DNA of 34,591 bases from Nitrospina sp. LS_NOB (GTDB lineage Bacteria; Nitrospinota; Nitrospinia; Nitrospinales; VA-1): assembly GCA_001542995.1 (NCBI GenBank), contig LFLA01000010.1:1-34591 (forward strand). The letters are read 5' to 3'. Positions 24,260-34,562 of this stretch are shown here, piece by piece (the stretch's first letter is position 1; each line of letters opens with the position of its first letter). The position numbers and the translations under genes are program-made. The notes below the pieces were generated by a model. The model was not told where the DNA came from. It was given only the letters and a program-made list of their open reading frames with translations, and did no database searches.

Positions 24260-25594
24260 ATGGAAGAATTTGATGTGTTGGTGTTGGGTGGAGGCTTGGC
24301 CGGGGTTTCGGCCGCTCTCAGAGCGGCCGAACTGGGTGGAAGAGTTTGCCTTATTGAAAGGAACCATATAGGCAAAGCGGGTTTTCAAAGAAGAAACACG
24401 CTTTTTATTGAAAACCGTTGCTCCATTGCACCTTCGGTAAGTTGGGAAGAATATAGAAATATTTTACATTCCGAGACTGAGCAATATTCCCAGTCTGTGA
24501 GAGAAAAACTAAACGTCGCGGGCGTGTCTGTCATAGAAGGGGAGGGAAGGCTTGCGAGTCCGACAGAGATTAACGTTGAAAAAAGTGATGGTGAACATTT
24601 GCTCTTAACGGGCAGGTCGGTGATTCTAGCTTATGGTTCTGATCCTCGATTCTCGGCCACCTTACCCCATGAGGAGGGCATTGTAATATCCATCGATGAG
24701 ATTCCCCAACTTGCCGCACTTCCTGAAAAAGTTCTTGTCGTCGGGGGTGGTCCCTTTGCCAGTGAGACGGCACTCGGGCTTCATAAAAGAGGATGCAAAG
24801 TTTTTCTTTGCTATGAACAAAAAGAATTGTTCCCACAATTGGATGAAGACTTTAATGCTGCGATAGAACCCCGGTTTAAAGAGAAAAAAATTAAAATCCT
24901 TCCGGGAAAGAAGTTGATTTCGATATACAAAAATAGCGATGAACTTGAAATTACTTTGGAGACGGGCATCAAGTTCTCCGTCCATCAAATAATAATTACT
25001 GGGGACAGGATGGGGGTTAAAGAAAATGACATCGCTGAAAAACTGGGGATTCGTTTGGGTGAACATCAAAAAGTCTTTGTAGACGATTCCATGATGACCA
25101 GCTTGCCTGGAGTGTATGCGGTGGGAAGTATAAGCGGCGAGTTGACCAGCGACACGCTTTCTCAGGCAGAAGGTAAAATTGCTGCAGAAAATGCCATGGG
25201 GAAAAAAAGGATACTGAACCGGGAGTGGGTTTCACAGGTCGCTCGGCTGATTCCTGATGTGGCATATGTGGGGTGTTCCATGAAAACAGCCCCTCAGCAA
25301 GGATTTCATCCTGTCGAGGGCGTATTCGAGGAGGGTTTCACAGGCGCTGAAAATATGTCCTCTCCCCAAACCGGGGGAAGATATAAAATAGTAGCAGATA
25401 AAAGATCACGTCTGATTGTGGGGGCACAGATTATTTCACATCAGGCTGCTGATTGGATTCCGATACTGTTATTATTAATTAAAAAGGGGGTCACGGTGGG
25501 TAATCTGGCCAATTCCATCACTTCTGAAGGGGCGAAAATTAGTGGCTTGTGCGAGGCGGCGCGGAATTGTGCAAGAGCCTTGAAGTCCCCATAA
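24260..25594 (+). CDS. Lipoamide-dehydrogenase-like flavoprotein lacking redox cysteines
   Basis: A 444-residue protein with the class I pyridine nucleotide-disulfide oxidoreductase fold: FAD motif VLGGGLAGVSAALRAAELGG (residues 7-26), second nucleotide motif VLVVGGGPFASETALGLHKR, an ATG-like VYAVGSISG region and a C-terminal dimerisation domain. The active CxxxxC after the first motif is absent (GKAGFQRRNTLFIEN in its place), and the C-terminal His-Pro-x-x-x-Glu is replaced by NSITSE. Dithiol chemistry of lipoamide dehydrogenase or mercuric reductase is therefore unlikely. A quinone- or NAD(P)H-linked oxidoreductase is possible. It lies 147 bases before the Rieske gene on the same strand. 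Confidence 0.85.
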   Translation: MEEFDVLVLGGGLAGVSAALRAAELGGRVCLIERNHIGKAGFQRRNTLFIENRCSIAPSVSWEEYRNILHSETEQYSQSVREKLNVAGVSVIEGEGRLASPTEINVEKSDGEHLLLTGRSVILAYGSDPRFSATLPHEEGIVISIDEIPQLAALPEKVLVVGGGPFASETALGLHKRGCKVFLCYEQKELFPQLDEDFNAAIEPRFKEKKIKILPGKKLISIYKNSDELEITLETGIKFSVHQIIITGDRMGVKENDIAEKLGIRLGEHQKVFVDDSMMTSLPGVYAVGSISGELTSDTLSQAEGKIAAENAMGKKRILNREWVSQVARLIPDVAYVGCSMKTAPQQGFHPVEGVFEEGFTGAENMSSPQTGGRYKIVADKRSRLIVGAQIISHQAADWIPILLLLIKKGVTVGNLANSITSEGAKISGLCEAARNCARALKSP

Positions 25595-25741
25595 AAAAGG
25601 TGGTTTCAGGCCAATTACTTCTTGCCTTGACTCGATATTTTAATTATGTTAAAAACCAACACTTTGACAGTCTATTCCGGCTTGTCAACCGGGTCTTAAA
25701 AAGTCCATGAGTCCACATAAAATTAGGTATTATTGAGCTTT

Positions 25742-26293
25742 ATGGCTGATGAGAAACCAAAAGAAAAAACGGCATCCAAAGAGGCAAAGGGAAAGGATGA
25801 GGCGCTGGAAACAATCTGGTCGCGCCGGGAATTTTTCTCGCTAGCGGGTTGGGCCGGATTTTTAGCTTCCCTGGGGCTATCTGCCTTATATTTTGCGCGG
25901 TTACTATTCCCTCGTGTTCTCTTTGAACCTTCCCCGATATTCAAGGCAGGAATACCCAGTGACTACACGGTTGGTGAAGTCAGTACCAAGTGGGTTACGG
26001 ATCAGCGTGTTTGGATTGTTCGCGATGAGGAAGGTATTTATGTCATTTTTGCGTTATGCACGCATTTAGGATGTACTCCGCGTTGGTTGAGATCAGAGAG
26101 TAAATACAAATGCCCCTGTCACGGTAGTGGTTTTACCAAGCAAGGGATAAACTTTGAAGGCCCGGCACCAAGGCCTCTGGAACGGTTAAAAATTGCTTTG
26201 GCTCCGGATGGGCAGATCATTATTGATAAAAGTAAGAAATTTCTTTTTGAAAAGGGTCAGTGGGGCAAACCGGGCGCTAAACTTTTTGTCTAA
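25742..26293 (+). CDS. petC: Rieske iron-sulfur subunit of the cytochrome bc complex
   Basis: This subunit takes one electron from quinol and passes it to a c-type cytochrome. The 183 residues begin with a Lys/Glu-rich stretch, then SRREFFSLAGWAGFLASLGL, a twin-arginine-like motif and membrane anchor. The soluble domain has both cluster loops, CTHLGCTPRW and CPCHGSGF, with the two extra cysteines that form the stabilising disulfide in bc and b6f proteins. That distinguishes it from the small ferredoxin at 2566. The ATG at 25742 is preferred over TTG 25733. The cytochrome b genes follow on the same strand. TTGACA/TGTCAA arms lie upstream at 25664-25688. Confidence 0.93.
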   Translation: MADEKPKEKTASKEAKGKDEALETIWSRREFFSLAGWAGFLASLGLSALYFARLLFPRVLFEPSPIFKAGIPSDYTVGEVSTKWVTDQRVWIVRDEEGIYVIFALCTHLGCTPRWLRSESKYKCPCHGSGFTKQGINFEGPAPRPLERLKIALAPDGQIIIDKSKKFLFEKGQWGKPGAKLFV

Positions 26294-26378: not shown

Positions 26379-27209
26379 TTGGCAAGTAATTCACCTAAGA
26401 TTCCGAATATCGCGGAATTGATGGATAAAATTAAAAGCGGCAAGATCTTCAGTGATATTGCCAAGGAAATTACAGAATCGCAGATATGGACATCTAGTTT
26501 CCGACATGGTTATGCAGACACTCCTCGAAACCGTGTACTGCAAATTGCCAGTAACGTCTGGTTGCATCTTCATCCAGTCAAGATTCAACGTCACGCTCTG
26601 CGAATAAAATTTACATGGTGCATGGGAGGAATCACTTTTCTCCTGTTTCTTTCCACGGTAGTGACTGGCGTGATCCTGATGTTCTATTACAGGCCTGTTG
26701 GTGAATATGCTTACTACGATATGAAGTATCTGCAATACGATGTTCCCTTTGGCATGCTCATGAGGAATATGCATCGTTGGGCGGCGCACGCTATGGTTAT
26801 CACTGTGTGGTTGCATATGTTTCGGGTCTTTTTAACCGGCTCGTATAAACCACCGAGAGAATTTAACTGGGTCATTGGGGTGCTCTTGGTAACGTTCACC
26901 CTGCTCCTAAGTTTTACCGGTTACCTTCTGCCTTGGGATCAATTGGCGATGTGGGCGGTCACCGTAGGCACCAATATGGCGCGTGCCACCCCGTTTCTGG
27001 GCAATGAAGGTCCATTTGCGGAATTCGTCGGGGCGACTCCAAGGTATGATGTCCGTGCCTTGTTGATTGGAGGGAGCGTAGTAGGGCCTCCTGCTCTATT
27101 AAGGTTTTACGTATTGCATTGTATTTTCATTCCTTTGGTTGCCGGAGCCTTGATGATCGTGCATTTCTGGCGAATCCGCAAGGATGGTGGAATTTCCGGC
27201 CCTCTTTAA
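26379..27209 (+). CDS. petB: Cytochrome b6-type subunit of the bc complex
   Basis: The 276-residue protein has four membrane helices like cytochrome b6. Heme ligands are His132 and His146 ([19 protein letters not shown]) and His247 and His262; the second pair is separated by 14 residues, as in b6 proteins. Cys81 in [13 protein letters not shown] lines up with the cysteine of b6 (YCLGGITLTCF) that binds heme c_i covalently. It starts at TTG with GGAGG eight bases upstream. The first 70 residues form a longer N-terminal extension than plant b6. Together with the next gene it forms a split cytochrome b. Function: quinol oxidation and reduction in the cytoplasmic membrane. Confidence 0.95.
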
Positions 27210-27242: not shown

Positions 27243-28004
27243 ATGGCTCAAGCGGCGGCACCAAAGAAAAAGGCAGAAGGGTTGGGTGGGGAAAAGCTCC
27301 ATGTTTGGCCGTACTTGGTCCGGTTGGAGTTTCTTTGCGCTATTCTCACCATTGTGGCTCTTACAGTATGGTCGATCGTTATTGATGCGCCGTTGGAAGA
27401 AGCGGCAAATCCGACCAAAACCCCAAATCCTTCCAAAGCGCCCTGGTATTTCCTCGGGCTTCAAGACATCCTGGTTTATTTCGATCCCTGGTTCGCCGGT
27501 GTTGTGGCTCCCGTCCTCATCATCGTTGGGCTGATGCTGATTCCGTATCTGGATGTGAATCCCAAAGGGAACGGATATTACACCTATCACGAAAGAAAAA
27601 CGGCGATATGGGTTTACTCCTTTGGTTTTCTGGTGCTCTGGATCGCTTTGATCATTATGGGGGTGTTCCTAAGGGGGCCGGGTTGGAACCTTTTTATGCC
27701 TTGGCAGTATTGGGACCCGCATAAGGTTGTGGCCCTGGTCAATGTTGATCTTCCTTATGCGTTCGGGGTTCGAACCTACAATGGGGCCATGCTTTTTGGT
27801 GGAGCGGTGATACTGGGATATTTTGCCGTGGGTACTGGGATCTATTTTTTCATGGAACGTAAGGCGCTCAAGAGTGTTGGTTTCTTGAGAATGTTTCTGA
27901 AAATTGAACTTTTCCTTATCATGATGGGCATTGTCATCAAAATTGTTCTCAGGCTGGGTTTTAATATCAAGTATGTATGGGTGACACCCTGGTTTAATAT
28001 TTAA
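27243..28004 (+). CDS. petD: Cytochrome b C-terminal (subunit IV-like) protein of the bc complex
   Basis: It supplies the C-terminal half of the split cytochrome b, with part of the quinol-oxidising site. The 253 residues are longer than the ~160 of plant subunit IV and hold about five membrane helices (near 27-47, 83-103, 121-145, 185-207, 217-238). The quinol-site motif normally PEWY reads APWY here (residues 66-69, in SKAPWYFLGLQDILVYF), so the proton-accepting Glu is missing at that place. AAGGA precedes the ATG closely. It is 33 bases after the b6-type gene and 23 bases before the cytochrome c gene. Confidence 0.9.
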   Translation: MAQAAAPKKKAEGLGGEKLHVWPYLVRLEFLCAILTIVALTVWSIVIDAPLEEAANPTKTPNPSKAPWYFLGLQDILVYFDPWFAGVVAPVLIIVGLMLIPYLDVNPKGNGYYTYHERKTAIWVYSFGFLVLWIALIIMGVFLRGPGWNLFMPWQYWDPHKVVALVNVDLPYAFGVRTYNGAMLFGGAVILGYFAVGTGIYFFMERKALKSVGFLRMFLKIELFLIMMGIVIKIVLRLGFNIKYVWVTPWFNI

Positions 28005-28027: not shown

Positions 28028-30676
28028 TTGGCTGAAGAAGAACAAAAAAAGGAATATAAAGAAGGGGAATTTGACGAGCATACCTCGTACAGCTTCCTCT
28101 TTTTTCTGGTCTCAACAGTAACGCTTTTTGTCACGCTTTGGGCGTTCTGGGATGATGAATATGCCCGCCGGGGCTACAAGGTTTATCAGGACCAGTTTCA
28201 CAAGGAGCAATATGCCGTAGCAGAAGCAAACTGGAAAAAGCTCAACGCGGAAATTGAAGAGACTGAGAAGCAAATTATAGAAAGCCTGGCTCAAAGTGAA
28301 GGCGAACTGGATTCTTCGGATTCCTATCAGGAACTGGTTGAGGAAGTTCGGCTCAAACAAGTAGCGGTGGATGAGCAGAAAGAACAGCAAAAGTTTTCCG
28401 GCAGCATGGTTGATGAAGCTTATTACTGGTATAAAAAAGCCTTGCATGCGGGGGAAAACTTTGATGTGCAATTGGCCTCTCTTCATTCCAGGCAAGGCGA
28501 GGTGGAATCTTTTAACCCGATCATCGCAGAAAAACAGGCGATTTTGCAGGAGGCGGAAAACAGGCTGTTAGAAGTCAAGGCTGATCAGATCAAGCTGGAT
28601 AAAGATCTGGCTCAGCTAACCACGGAACGAAGTAAGTTTGAATTGACCATGGACTATTACAAGCCGTTTCCTTTTTTCTGGAAGCCTGCGGAAATCCTTC
28701 AAACCGTAATTCCGGGCTTTGGCAAAAATGCCTTTAAAGAAATTATTTACCGGGTAGACCGGTGTATGACCTGCCATATTGCATATCAGGACGAACATTA
28801 TAAGGATTTTAAGCAACCTTTAAAGTCCCATCCCAATCTTGATATTCTGATTAAAAAGCATCCCCCTGAAGTGACAGGTTGTACCTGGTGTCATCTGGGG
28901 CAGGGAACGGTCACGGCTCCGGCTGAGCATGCTCATGGTTCGCATCATGAAACGGATCAAACGGTTGAAGTCAATGAACCCATTCTCCAAGGTGACTACC
29001 AACAGGCAACGTGTAGAAATTGTCATGCTGAAGTGATCAATTTGGATGGTGCTCCGCTTTTGTCAGAGGGGAAAAGGCTCTTTATCAAACTGGGCTGTCA
29101 TGGTTGCCATTTAGCGGATGGTTATGCCACACAGGCTAAGGTTGGACCCAGGCTTTATAGAGTTGCCAGCAAGGTTGATCCGAGTTGGTTATACCGCTGG
29201 GTAAAAATCCCCAGGGACTATCTGCCTAAAACCCGAATGCCGGAATTCCAGTTCGATGAAAAAGACGCAATGGCGGTTACGGCTTACCTTCTTGCGTCTT
29301 CGGATAAAGATTATAGTTTGCGTGTGAAGTTTGAATCGGGCGATGCAGAAAAAGGCAAGAAATTATTTGAATCTGTAGGCTGCCAGGGTTGCCATGAACT
29401 CGATGGCAGGGGAGAAACCCATGGGCCGGATCTAAGTCGTATTGGTAACAAGGTCAATGCTGATTGGCTGGTGACTTGGATCAGTAGTCCCCACAGTTAT
29501 AACCCCGCGAGTAAAATGCCTGACCTTCGGTTGGGTGATGAGAAGGCCACCGACATAGCTTCTTACTTAATCCAGTTCGGCAAAAAAGAAGTGATTCCCG
29601 GACTTGAAGCAAAACTTAAAGATCCCGAGTTGATCAAACACGGGAAGACAATAGTTCGCCGTAGGGGTTGTTTTGCCTGCCATGATATCAAGGGGATGGA
29701 AAGCGAGGGCCGAATTGCGCCGGAGCTATCCTCCTTTGGCAGAAAAATGATTGTGGAACTGGAGTTTGGTGACACGCATATTTCTCATACCTGGGATTCC
29801 TGGGTTAGAACCAAATTAAAAAAGCCGGATTCTTTCAAAACCGAACGGGTTTTAGACAAGATGCCCAATTTTCACCTTGCACCAGGTGAAATTGATGCAT
29901 TGGTTGTGCTCCTGAAAGGTTTCAATGGTACTAAAGTGCCTGTGCAATACCGCAGGATACTTTCTGATAAAGAGGAAATAATTGAAACAGGTCGCCGTAT
30001 AATCACCAAATACAATTGTAAGGCTTGCCATAATGTTGAAGGCGAAGGTGGACGGATTCAGAAATATCTCAAAGCGAAAGCGCAGTATCCTCCTCCATTA
30101 GATATGGGAGATTATCATGTAGGGGAACGCCTCAAAAGTTCCTGGTTGTATTCATTCTTGAGAGATCCGACACCCGTTAGAACCTGGCTTAAAGTAAAAA
30201 TGCCCACTTTCTCTTTTTCCGATAAAGAAGTGAGGGATCTGACGGCCTATTTTGAAGCGTTGTCTCCCGCTAGTGGTTATGAGGCCGGTGTTCATAAAAG
30301 TAAAGATGATGCAGTGGCGCAAAAAGGCGCTGAAATGGTCAACTACATGGATTGTGGCCGTTGCCATGATGAGGGGGAAAAAGGCATTGAGTTTTCACTG
30401 GCCAGCCAAAGGCTTCGCTCTAAATGGATTCCAAAATGGCTCAAAAATACCCGAGAAATGATCCCTTGGACCAAGATGCCTTCGCATTGGGTTAAGAAAG
30501 GGGATAAATACACGGTTCCAACCAAGTACAGCGAGATTGAAACGGTTGGTGATGTGGATACCCAGGTAAAGACAGTGGCAGATTTGATTGTTGCCTATAA
30601 TACCGCCGAACTGGACTTTGACTTGAGTCTGGGGGAAGGTGGTGGAGATGATGAGGAAGAAGAGGACGAAGAATAA
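28028..30676 (+). CDS. Octaheme membrane-anchored cytochrome c of the bc complex
   Basis: The 882-residue protein has one N-terminal membrane helix (about 22-40), a long coiled coil (about 50-205) and eight CxxCH heme sites, at residues 246 (CMTCH), 285 (CTWCH), 329 (CRNCH), 357 (CHGCH), 452 (CQGCH), 548 (CFACH), 664 (CKACH) and 776 (CGRCH). The later sites are in cytochrome c-like domains with the GxxLFxxxGCxGCH and KMPDLRL patterns, the latter providing a Met ligand. The C-terminus is acidic (GGGDDEEEEDEE). It probably faces the periplasm and accepts electrons from the Rieske protein in place of cytochrome c1 or f. The start is TTG after CATCA-type weak ribosome-binding sequence (AGGATCGGG upstream). 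Exact function is inferred from position. Confidence 0.93.
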   Translation: MAEEEQKKEYKEGEFDEHTSYSFLFFLVSTVTLFVTLWAFWDDEYARRGYKVYQDQFHKEQYAVAEANWKKLNAEIEETEKQIIESLAQSEGELDSSDSYQELVEEVRLKQVAVDEQKEQQKFSGSMVDEAYYWYKKALHAGENFDVQLASLHSRQGEVESFNPIIAEKQAILQEAENRLLEVKADQIKLDKDLAQLTTERSKFELTMDYYKPFPFFWKPAEILQTVIPGFGKNAFKEIIYRVDRCMTCHIAYQDEHYKDFKQPLKSHPNLDILIKKHPPEVTGCTWCHLGQGTVTAPAEHAHGSHHETDQTVEVNEPILQGDYQQATCRNCHAEVINLDGAPLLSEGKRLFIKLGCHGCHLADGYATQAKVGPRLYRVASKVDPSWLYRWVKIPRDYLPKTRMPEFQFDEKDAMAVTAYLLASSDKDYSLRVKFESGDAEKGKKLFESVGCQGCHELDGRGETHGPDLSRIGNKVNADWLVTWISSPHSYNPASKMPDLRLGDEKATDIASYLIQFGKKEVIPGLEAKLKDPELIKHGKTIVRRRGCFACHDIKGMESEGRIAPELSSFGRKMIVELEFGDTHISHTWDSWVRTKLKKPDSFKTERVLDKMPNFHLAPGEIDALVVLLKGFNGTKVPVQYRRILSDKEEIIETGRRIITKYNCKACHNVEGEGGRIQKYLKAKAQYPPPLDMGDYHVGERLKSSWLYSFLRDPTPVRTWLKVKMPTFSFSDKEVRDLTAYFEALSPASGYEAGVHKSKDDAVAQKGAEMVNYMDCGRCHDEGEKGIEFSLASQRLRSKWIPKWLKNTREMIPWTKMPSHWVKKGDKYTVPTKYSEIETVGDVDTQVKTVADLIVAYNTAELDFDLSLGEGGGDDEEEEDEE

Positions 30677-30738: not shown

Positions 30739-30921
30739 ATGGAAAACTCAGGACTAGAAAACTTTCTTTTAATCGCGACCAAACCGGATAATATTCCCAT
30801 CGGAACTATGTTGCTGTTTGTGGGTTGGGTATTCTGGGTGGCTATTAGTCAGATGATCAAAAATGATCGTTGGATAAAAGAAGGTAAAAAAGAAAAAATT
30901 TGGGATGAAATGATAAAATAA
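30739..30921 (+). CDS. 60-residue single-pass membrane protein of the bc cassette
   Basis: Not recognised. The sequence has a polar N-terminus, one membrane helix (about 20-38, PIGTMLLFVGWVFWVAISQM) and a basic C-terminal tail (KNDRWIKEGKKEKIWDEMIK) placed in the cytoplasm by the positive-inside rule. It lies 62 bases after the octaheme cytochrome and its stop touches the start of the next gene. Size and position fit a small accessory subunit of the complex, comparable with small subunits of b6f, but this is inference. Confidence 0.65.
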   Translation: MENSGLENFLLIATKPDNIPIGTMLLFVGWVFWVAISQMIKNDRWIKEGKKEKIWDEMIK

Positions 30922-31437
30922 GTGGCCATTTTTGGGATTATATTCGTAGCGTTTTTTATTGGTATCATCCTGATTTTTTTCTTGAAGAAAACCTCGCCTC
31001 CCGCTCCACAAGAACAAATCCATTTCGACAGTCCTTCGGACGTCCCTGTCTATCTCACCGATAGAGACGCTTTCAAATCAAAGTGCGTTGAATTCATGGA
31101 AAAATTCAATCTTGAATATGTGCATTCTGTTTGGGCAGATGATCATGAGTTGGAAATTGCCATGAACGATGAAACGCCTGTTGTCGGTGGCAGTTATATC
31201 GCCCTTTGTATTATTGACCCCCCTGGCAAAACGGTCAATGCAATGAAGGTTAAAGGCTTTCTGGATACGGTGAAGGGGGAGGGCGCGTCACGGGGAATTT
31301 TGATCACCACGGGATACTTTTCCAATGAAGCGATTAATTTGATTGAGGAGGAGCCTGTTGAGCTGGTAAATGTGGTTTCATTTTTATCCTACCTGAAGAA
31401 ATTTGATATTTACGAAAATTCACCCGACCCATCCTGA
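30922..31437 (+). CDS. Membrane-anchored protein resembling the Mrr/restriction-endonuclease fold
   Basis: A 171-residue protein beginning at GTG directly after the preceding stop. It has one N-terminal membrane helix (about 3-21) and a soluble C-terminal domain. The segment KVKGFLDTVKGEGASRGILI followed by TTGYFSNEAINLIEEE and VELVNVVSFLSYL has the order seen in Mrr-type nuclease folds (GA..GI(F/L)(V/I)TT..F..EA ... (I)ELI(D/N)). However, the catalytic Asp...Q/E-x-Lys is not evident (ALCIIDPPG in that region), so a nuclease activity is not supported. It could be a non-catalytic derivative. Cytoplasmic or periplasmic side is uncertain. It ends the respiratory cassette; a palindromic repeat follows the stop. 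Confidence 0.6.
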   Translation: MAIFGIIFVAFFIGIILIFFLKKTSPPAPQEQIHFDSPSDVPVYLTDRDAFKSKCVEFMEKFNLEYVHSVWADDHELEIAMNDETPVVGGSYIALCIIDPPGKTVNAMKVKGFLDTVKGEGASRGILITTGYFSNEAINLIEEEPVELVNVVSFLSYLKKFDIYENSPDPS

Positions 31438-33157: not shown

Positions 33158-33886
33158 ATGATCACCCAGGTCAAGCTGGATTATATTAATCGGCTTATTG
33201 ATGAGTGCCTCGACGGCGAGGCATTGGAATTGAATGGAAAATTCATCGGGGATGAGGGGGTTGAAGCCCTGGTCCAAACAAACCGTATCTTTGAAGTGGA
33301 GAACCTGGACCTTTCCAGGAATAAACTGACCTGGCGCGGCGCCCACCATTTATTTCACTGCCACCTGTTTAAAAATTTGAAGCGGTTGTATCTTGGGGAA
33401 AACAATATTTCAGATAAAGGGGTTAAGGAGTTGCCATCGGCTGATTTTGCGGGAAACCTCTCGCTCCTCGATTTACGCTACAACAATATTGGCCCTGAGG
33501 GTGGGTTGGCCGTTGTGCAATCAGAAAAGTTTAGAAAACTACAGGTTTTAATTTTTCAGGAAAATCCTGTCGGCGATGAAACCCTGATAACACTGGCGAA
33601 AGCTCCTGCTTTTGCGAATCTGAGAAAATTAAATTTTTATCGAACGGAAATTACCCCGAAAGGTATTAAGACTCTGGCTAAGTCGAAAGTATTGCAAAGG
33701 GTGAAACATTTTAATCTGGCGCGAAATTATCTGTATTTGGAATCGGCCAAACTGCTGGCCAACACTAAAACCCTGACCAATATAGAAAGCCTCTTGTTGT
33801 TCGACACAGGAATAAGGGATGATGGGGCTAAATTGATTACGGAATCTGAAGCATTTGCCAAGTTGAAAAATTTGCGGATTACGTGA
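33158..33886 (+). CDS. Leucine-rich-repeat (RNI-like) protein
   Basis: A 242-residue protein made of irregular leucine-rich repeats of the ribonuclease-inhibitor type: VENLDLSRNKLTWRGAHHL, LKRLYLGENNISDKGVKEL, LSLLDLRYNNIGPEGGLAV, LQVLIFQENPVGDETLI, LRKLNFYRTEITPKGIK, VKHFNLARNYLYLESAKLL, IESLLLFDTGIRDDGAKLI. Such horseshoe structures bind proteins. There is no signal peptide or membrane helix, so it is probably cytoplasmic, in contrast to the exported protein encoded just before it. Function unknown. It starts two bases after the preceding stop and is likely in the same transcript as metF. Confidence 0.9.
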   Translation: MITQVKLDYINRLIDECLDGEALELNGKFIGDEGVEALVQTNRIFEVENLDLSRNKLTWRGAHHLFHCHLFKNLKRLYLGENNISDKGVKELPSADFAGNLSLLDLRYNNIGPEGGLAVVQSEKFRKLQVLIFQENPVGDETLITLAKAPAFANLRKLNFYRTEITPKGIKTLAKSKVLQRVKHFNLARNYLYLESAKLLANTKTLTNIESLLLFDTGIRDDGAKLITESEAFAKLKNLRIT

Positions 33887-33911
33887 GAGACTGTAATAAA
33901 CCGAACGGTGT

Positions 33912-34562
33912 TCCTCAGAATGACAAAATAGCCTTGTATCGTCATTCTGAACGGTTTGCGCTGTCATTCTGAATACTTCGACTTCGCTCAGCACAGGCTC
34001 CGTGAAGAATCCCGCTTCTCTTGTCATTCCGGGAGGGATCCTTCGTCGCCTCCGGATCCTCGAGGATGACAAACTGGCGTTTCCTGTCATGCTGAACGGG
34101 ATCGCATTGTCATTCTGAACGCAGTGAAGAATCCCGCTTTTCTTGTCATTCTGAACGCAGTGAAGAATCCCCAGGTTAGTGCAAGGCGAGATCCTTCGTC
34201 GCCTCCGGCTCCTCGAGGATGACAAACTGGCGTTTCTTGTCATTCTGAACAAAAGGATGACAAATTGGCGTTTCTTGTCATTCTGAACGCAGTGAAGAAT
34301 CTCGCTTTTCTGTCATTCCGGGAGGGATCCTTCGTCGCCTTCGGCTCCTCGAGGATGACAAACTGGCGTTTCCTGTCATGCTGAATACTTCGACTTCGCT
34401 CAGCACAGGCTCCGTGAAGAATCCCCAGGTTAGTGCAAGGCGAGATCCTTCGTCGCCTCCGGCTCCTCAAGGATGACAAACTGGCGTTTCCTGTCATGCT
34501 GAACGGGATCGCATTGTCATTCTGAATACTTCGACTTCGCTCAGCACAGGCTCCGTGAAGAC
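33912..34562. repeat. Mosaic of short intergenic repeats
   Basis: The 705 bases after the last gene are built from recurring blocks. GTCATTCTGAA occurs at 33941, 33963, 34109, 34145, 34239, 34277 and 34516, with variants GTCATGCTGAA (34086, 34376, 34493) and GTCATTCCGGGAGG (34023, 34312). AGGATGACAAACTGGCGTTTC recurs at about 34063, 34217, 34353 and 34470. A block with ATACTTCGACTTCGCTCAGC is at 33973, 34385 and 34526, and CCCAGGTTAGTGCAAGGCGA at 34170 and 34424. GTCAT and ATGAC ends are mutually inverse, so hairpins can form. Frames in this region have Arg/Ser-rich repeat translations and are not genes. Confidence 0.9.

Follow-up and report, generated by a model that had tools for sequence, protein, structure and literature searches.

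The bc-like operon of N. gracilis carries a split cytochrome b whose sole neighbouring cytochrome c is, according to the passages of Lücker et al. (2013, PMC3578206) on this locus, an "atypical octaheme cytochrome c", and the same operon with its octaheme is reported there for Kuenenia and Methylomirabilis. A model of the Kuenenia protein Kustd1485 published in 2025 shows long helices wound about the complex, its Rieske protein included, and c hemes that approach the cofactors of the membrane domain to 26-28 Angstrom, a distance taken from a model rather than a structure (PMC12954380). Among the genes of the operon concerned (R/b-2, Kustd1480-1485) is also one for a putative NAD(P) oxidoreductase (PMC12954380).

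Here we analyse an octaheme cytochrome c encoded in a window of 34,591 nucleotides, the whole stretch of DNA under study, from Nitrospina sp. LS_NOB. In having its gene next to those for cytochrome b6 and subunit IV, it agrees with the Nitrospina/Kuenenia R/b octaheme type. A known family of identical architecture and assigned function had been named as counting against the original prediction and, to a large extent, there is one: since the operon passages of Lücker et al. describe an octaheme beside the N. gracilis operon (PMC3578206), the present protein is an instance of one published in 2013, the parts of which can now be defined more exactly (Table 1).

Table 1. Coordinates of the octaheme cytochrome c, its parts, its operon neighbours and related loci
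Feature	Position	Strand	Residues, motifs or content	Basis
Rieske [2Fe-2S] subunit	25733-26293	+	N-terminal membrane anchor	PF00355 over cut-off
Cytochrome b6-type subunit	26379-27209	+		PF00033
Subunit IV-like protein	27243-28004	+		PF00032
Octaheme cytochrome c subunit	28028-30676	+	882 aa	ORF, heme motifs, AlphaFold2, homologues
N-terminal membrane helix	28091-28165	+	22-46	hydropathy, AlphaFold2
Helical arm	28166-28660	+	47-211	AlphaFold2, periodicity test, conserved length
Heptad-periodic arm helix	28319-28447	+	98-140	periodicity test
Heptad-periodic arm helix	28463-28660	+	146-211	periodicity test
Triheme module	28694-29056	+	223-343; CxxCH 246, 285, 329	also in short pentaheme and nonaheme relatives
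Monoheme domain 1	29057-29317	+	heme 4, CHGCH 357; Met 404
Monoheme domain 2	29333-29593	+	heme 5, CQGCH 452; Met 497
Monoheme domain 3	29621-29947	+	heme 6, CFACH 548; Met 612
Monoheme domain 4	29963-30262	+	heme 7, CKACH 664; Met 725
Monoheme domain 5	30299-30565	+	heme 8, CGRCH 776; Met 817
60-aa single-helix protein, probable fifth subunit	30739-30921	+		conservation, fusion to subunit IV elsewhere
Pentaheme c subunits	L071 1217-2473; L072 1510-2778		triheme module, short arm, two monoheme domains
Tandem Rieske/b6/IV operons	L069 3770-14066		first with nonaheme and separate diheme cytochrome, next with octaheme

Operon context and type of complex

The octaheme gene is the fourth in a row, following those for the Rieske protein, cytochrome b6 and subunit IV with short gaps between them, so that Rieske, cytochrome b and c-type cytochrome genes stand together in one operon, as expected of a complex III-like system. 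Promoter and terminator scans gave results no better than chance. The best PDB match of the Rieske protein is 9rk3, Kuenenia Kustd1480 (E=1.6e-46), while the b6 subunit has b6 proteins of b6f complexes as its best PDB matches, can be aligned to b6 from plants and cyanobacteria, and has the heme c-n cysteine conserved (TWCMGG aligned to FYCIGG). Subunit IV, aligned to its b6f counterpart, has APWY at the quinol-site motif where b6f has PEWY, and is the longer of the two, with about five hydrophobic segments counted by eye. Within the octaheme itself no cytochrome c1 or f domain was found among Pfam matches at E<=1. The only other cytochrome b gene of the genome (L058, G000:C22) is unsplit, as has been reported likewise for N. 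gracilis, and no Rieske gene lies in the 3.5 kb surrounding it. We consider it highly likely that the octaheme is the cytochrome c subunit, in place of c1 or f, of a b6-type complex that would act as a menaquinol:cytochrome c oxidoreductase.

A complex that bifurcates electrons to NAD(P)+, as proposed for Kuenenia, and runs no normal Q cycle seems very improbable to us. Such an activity would accord with the nearest Rieske relative, Kustd1480, coming from an operon with a putative NAD(P) oxidoreductase (PMC12954380), and with the presence of a flavoprotein gene (24260-25594) directly upstream of the present operon. However, no NAD(P) oxidoreductase gene occurs between 25733 and 30676, and the flavoprotein is lipoamide-dehydrogenase-like, its evolution is far more rapid than that of the operon genes, and outside Nitrospinota it was not detected next to the operon; no CxxxxC redox disulfide is visible at the position typical of the lipoamide dehydrogenase family.

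Heme grouping and distribution

The octaheme reading frame opens with a TTG codon and encodes one N-terminal hydrophobic helix (19-residue hydropathy windows starting at 19-24 exceed 1.6, the single membrane segment), a long, charged, cysteine-free helical stretch, the hemes and an acidic tail. Where 2000 shuffled sequences average 0.0065 CxxCH motifs and none has more than 1, the protein has eight, and these take up every one of its 16 cysteines. Hydropathy, AlphaFold2 and these motifs thus bear out the original prediction of one membrane anchor and eight hemes c, for which the coordinates and heme spacing had also been given correctly. A search of PDB sequences returned ordinary cytochrome c domains, whereas a PDB fold search returned nothing significant (best E 0.015, followed by coiled coils of unrelated proteins, SMC arms among them); further copies were sought in the genome itself, with only partial cytochrome c similarities as the outcome.

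The protein contains just five Met-Pro pairs, one after each of the last five CxxCH motifs, and the Met of such a pair is the usual distal ligand in cytochromes c. In monoheme domains 1-4 this Met is conserved wherever an alignment row has the region; that of domain 5 is missing in some Desulfobacterales. The three front motifs are without Met-Pro but are accompanied by invariant histidines (268, 278 and 303), which are likely to be the distal ligands of the triheme module. From this pattern of residues, hemes 1-3 are probably bis-His and hemes 4-8 His/Met coordinated. Because Met-Pro follows hemes 4-8 and the invariant additional histidines are at the front, we group the hemes as 3+5. The heme at 357 accordingly belongs to the first monoheme domain: a tight group of four (246-357), as proposed earlier, describes the positions but not the domains, and the idea of a multiheme front followed by repeating monoheme domains stands with a division of 3+5 rather than 4+4. 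Any resemblance of the front part to the family Cytochrome_C554 is at most weak (15.9 bits, with the cut-off at 20.8; 21.8 bits and E=8e-4 when the triheme stretch was used in a genome search).

Profiles built from the five monoheme domains detect each other, and the phylogeny that had been suggested as a check groups each domain with its same-position counterpart in other phyla (5 label changes, minimum 4), in a tree built on 88 columns only and with many unresolved forks. This grouping by position suggests that the five-domain array predates the spread of the gene.

All eight CxxCH motifs are present in each complete homologue detected, across phyla. Wherever the flanks are covered, the gene order Rieske-b6-IV-octaheme recurs in Nitrospinota and at loci carrying the labels Deltaproteobacteria, Desulfobacterales, Ignavibacteriales, Caldithrix and Chlamydiae. 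Another eight loci, from two other phyla, have it too, except that the Rieske gene was not detected in one of them. The supposed pairing of the octaheme with b6, subunit IV and Rieske proteins is correct. Nearly all sampled genomes of the window's own order have the octaheme, whole or as contig-end pieces, Nitrospinota genomes outside that order have mostly partial matches only, and elsewhere its occurrence is scattered (4 of 198 genomes in one further phylum, 11 of 46 in another). In some more distant Nitrospinota the c subunit of the Rieske/b operon consists of the triheme module, a short arm and only two further hemes. Since the triheme module is constant while the arm and the number of monoheme domains vary, we regard it as the constant core of these subunits.

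That the octaheme might be a catalytic protein of the HAO or hydrazine dehydrogenase kind, placed beside the operon by chance, is a reading to which we give almost no weight. Eight hemes c in a nitrogen-cycle organism would be in keeping with it, but of the eight heme domains five are ordinary, Met-ligated cytochrome c domains, there was no HAO-type family match, and the gene adjoins the Rieske/b operon also in groups not known for nitrite oxidation.

The helical arm and a small downstream gene

Between the membrane helix and the first heme, AlphaFold2 (single chain, shallow alignment of 29 sequences, pTM 0.62) predicts helices at residues 50-95, 98-140 and 146-211, with pLDDT mostly 86-94 and breaks at 96-97 and 141-145, and the same series is predicted for a Calditrichota homologue (pTM 0.55). 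The length of this region is well kept: Trp38 and the first heme cysteine are 208 residues apart in 15 of 15 close (Nitrospinaceae-type) rows and 197-218 elsewhere. As a heptad test on the octaheme sequence alone was clear only for residues about 150-212, periodicity was tested across the family, which yielded a hydrophobicity period of 3.5 for 98-140 (p=0.004) and for 146-211 (0 of 2000 shuffles). Helix 50-95 peaks at 3.71 (p=0.016, likewise family-wide) and is not a clean coiled coil. Since only the second and third helices show heptad periodicity, the coiled coil comprises these two and a short turn; the long helices of the original prediction are thus retained, but not its continuous coil of about 150 residues.

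The same prediction had the coil hold the heme domains away from the membrane or drive oligomerisation. Heptad periodicity in two arm helices, and long helices predicted at high confidence in two homologues, are what a stalk or oligomerisation element keeping the hemes far out in the periplasm would call for, yet three observations make it unlikely. The breaks would let the chain fold back; related operons have the triheme module even where the arm is down to about 40-90 residues; and, in the Kuenenia model, the helices wrap and the hemes remain near the membrane, which argues against a spacer (PMC12954380). We lean instead towards an arm that would be packed against the periplasmic side of the b6/IV core and wound round the Rieske protein, where it would brace the complex and position the heme module, by analogy with the wrapping helices of that published model (PMC12954380).

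Directly downstream of the octaheme gene, a 60-aa single-helix protein is encoded in every Nitrospinota locus covering the spot. Among close relatives, synonymous changes in its gene exceed nonsynonymous ones by 10 to 0 against L025 and by 11 to 2 against L006, and the two are about even against the most distant relatives; no Pfam or NCBIfam family matches the protein. At loci L044, L046 and L049-L051, which come from Caldithrix, a Chlamydiae-labelled MAG and, in three cases, Desulfobacterales, a homologue forms the N-terminus of subunit IV, and an Ignavibacteriales locus has a segment of weak similarity in the same place. In one Deltaproteobacteria locus the counterpart of this segment is encoded on its own, by a 55-aa gene elsewhere on that contig, and in eight other loci no counterpart was detected in the vicinity of the operon. 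Because it is fused to subunit IV in some lineages and adjacent in another, the 60-aa protein is probably a fifth subunit of the complex, to judge from these gene arrangements. It is possibly a new partner, overlooked so far, and is worth including whenever the complex is modelled or purified.

The next reading frame (30922-31437) begins at the stop codon of the 60-aa gene, encodes a membrane-anchored protein with an Mrr-type endonuclease-like domain and is conserved beside that gene in Nitrospinota loci. Farther along the window, a minus-strand frame (33629-34252) contains repeated short peptides (HCVQNDK, SSSRSRRRRRI) and resembles a dispersed repeat rather than a gene.

Proposed electron path and comparison with known systems

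Nitrospina is a major marine nitrite oxidiser in which the uphill electron route from nitrite to quinone is unsettled, and this complex is the obvious candidate. The octaheme beyond its N-terminal helix presumably lies in the periplasm. Gene order, heme count, ligand pattern, helices and conservation are observed directly. In the most likely scheme, menaquinol would be oxidised at the b6/IV site and one of its electrons would reach the triheme module by way of the Rieske cluster; the quinol oxidation and Rieske steps are established for Rieske/b complexes. The triheme module would sit near the membrane, trading electrons with the Rieske [2Fe-2S] head, and the five His/Met monoheme domains would relay them to an acceptor, be it a soluble cytochrome, an oxidase or nitrite oxidoreductase. 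When the cells grow on nitrite, electron flow is probably reversed, from high-potential cytochrome c to menaquinone, thereby yielding reductant, a direction that rests on the physiology presented in the relevant passages of Lücker et al. (PMC3578206).

The distinction between a triheme core and an added arm with its monoheme array offers testable parts. A bolder arrangement, in which an undescribed 60-aa fifth subunit is combined with an arm clamping the Rieske head and a five-domain heme chain in direct contact with nitrite oxidoreductase or the terminal oxidase, strikes us as unlikely; if true, it would hard-wire electron flow in both the forward and the reverse direction and dispense with diffusible cytochrome c.

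Among known systems, cytochrome b6f shares with the window operon a split cytochrome b with subunit IV, a Rieske protein and the heme c-n cysteine, but the operon is without cytochrome f, carries eight c hemes on an N-terminal anchor, and has APWY instead of PEWY and a longer subunit IV. The ExtP, ExtQ and ExtS families of NCBIfam (selenite/tellurite reduction operon cytochromes) are related b-type and c-type cytochromes, to which the matches all score below the curated cut-offs (94/100, 270/290 and 58/150 bits), and the window operon differs in additionally having a Rieske gene. With N. gracilis, compared by description, the locus shares the bacterial group and an operon of Fe-S protein, split cytochrome b and octaheme c; the account of that operon by Lücker et al. 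does not describe the heme grouping, the arm or the small downstream gene, nor does it report an NAD(P) oxidoreductase as a feature (PMC3578206). The NAD(P) oxidoreductase gene of the Kuenenia R/b-2 operon sets it apart from the window operon, in which there is none. R/b-2 is otherwise alike in its b6-like cytochrome b, long subunit IV and large, long-helix octaheme c, with Kustd1485 compared by description (PMC12954380) and the Rieske protein Kustd1480, the best PDB match of the window's own, by sequence.
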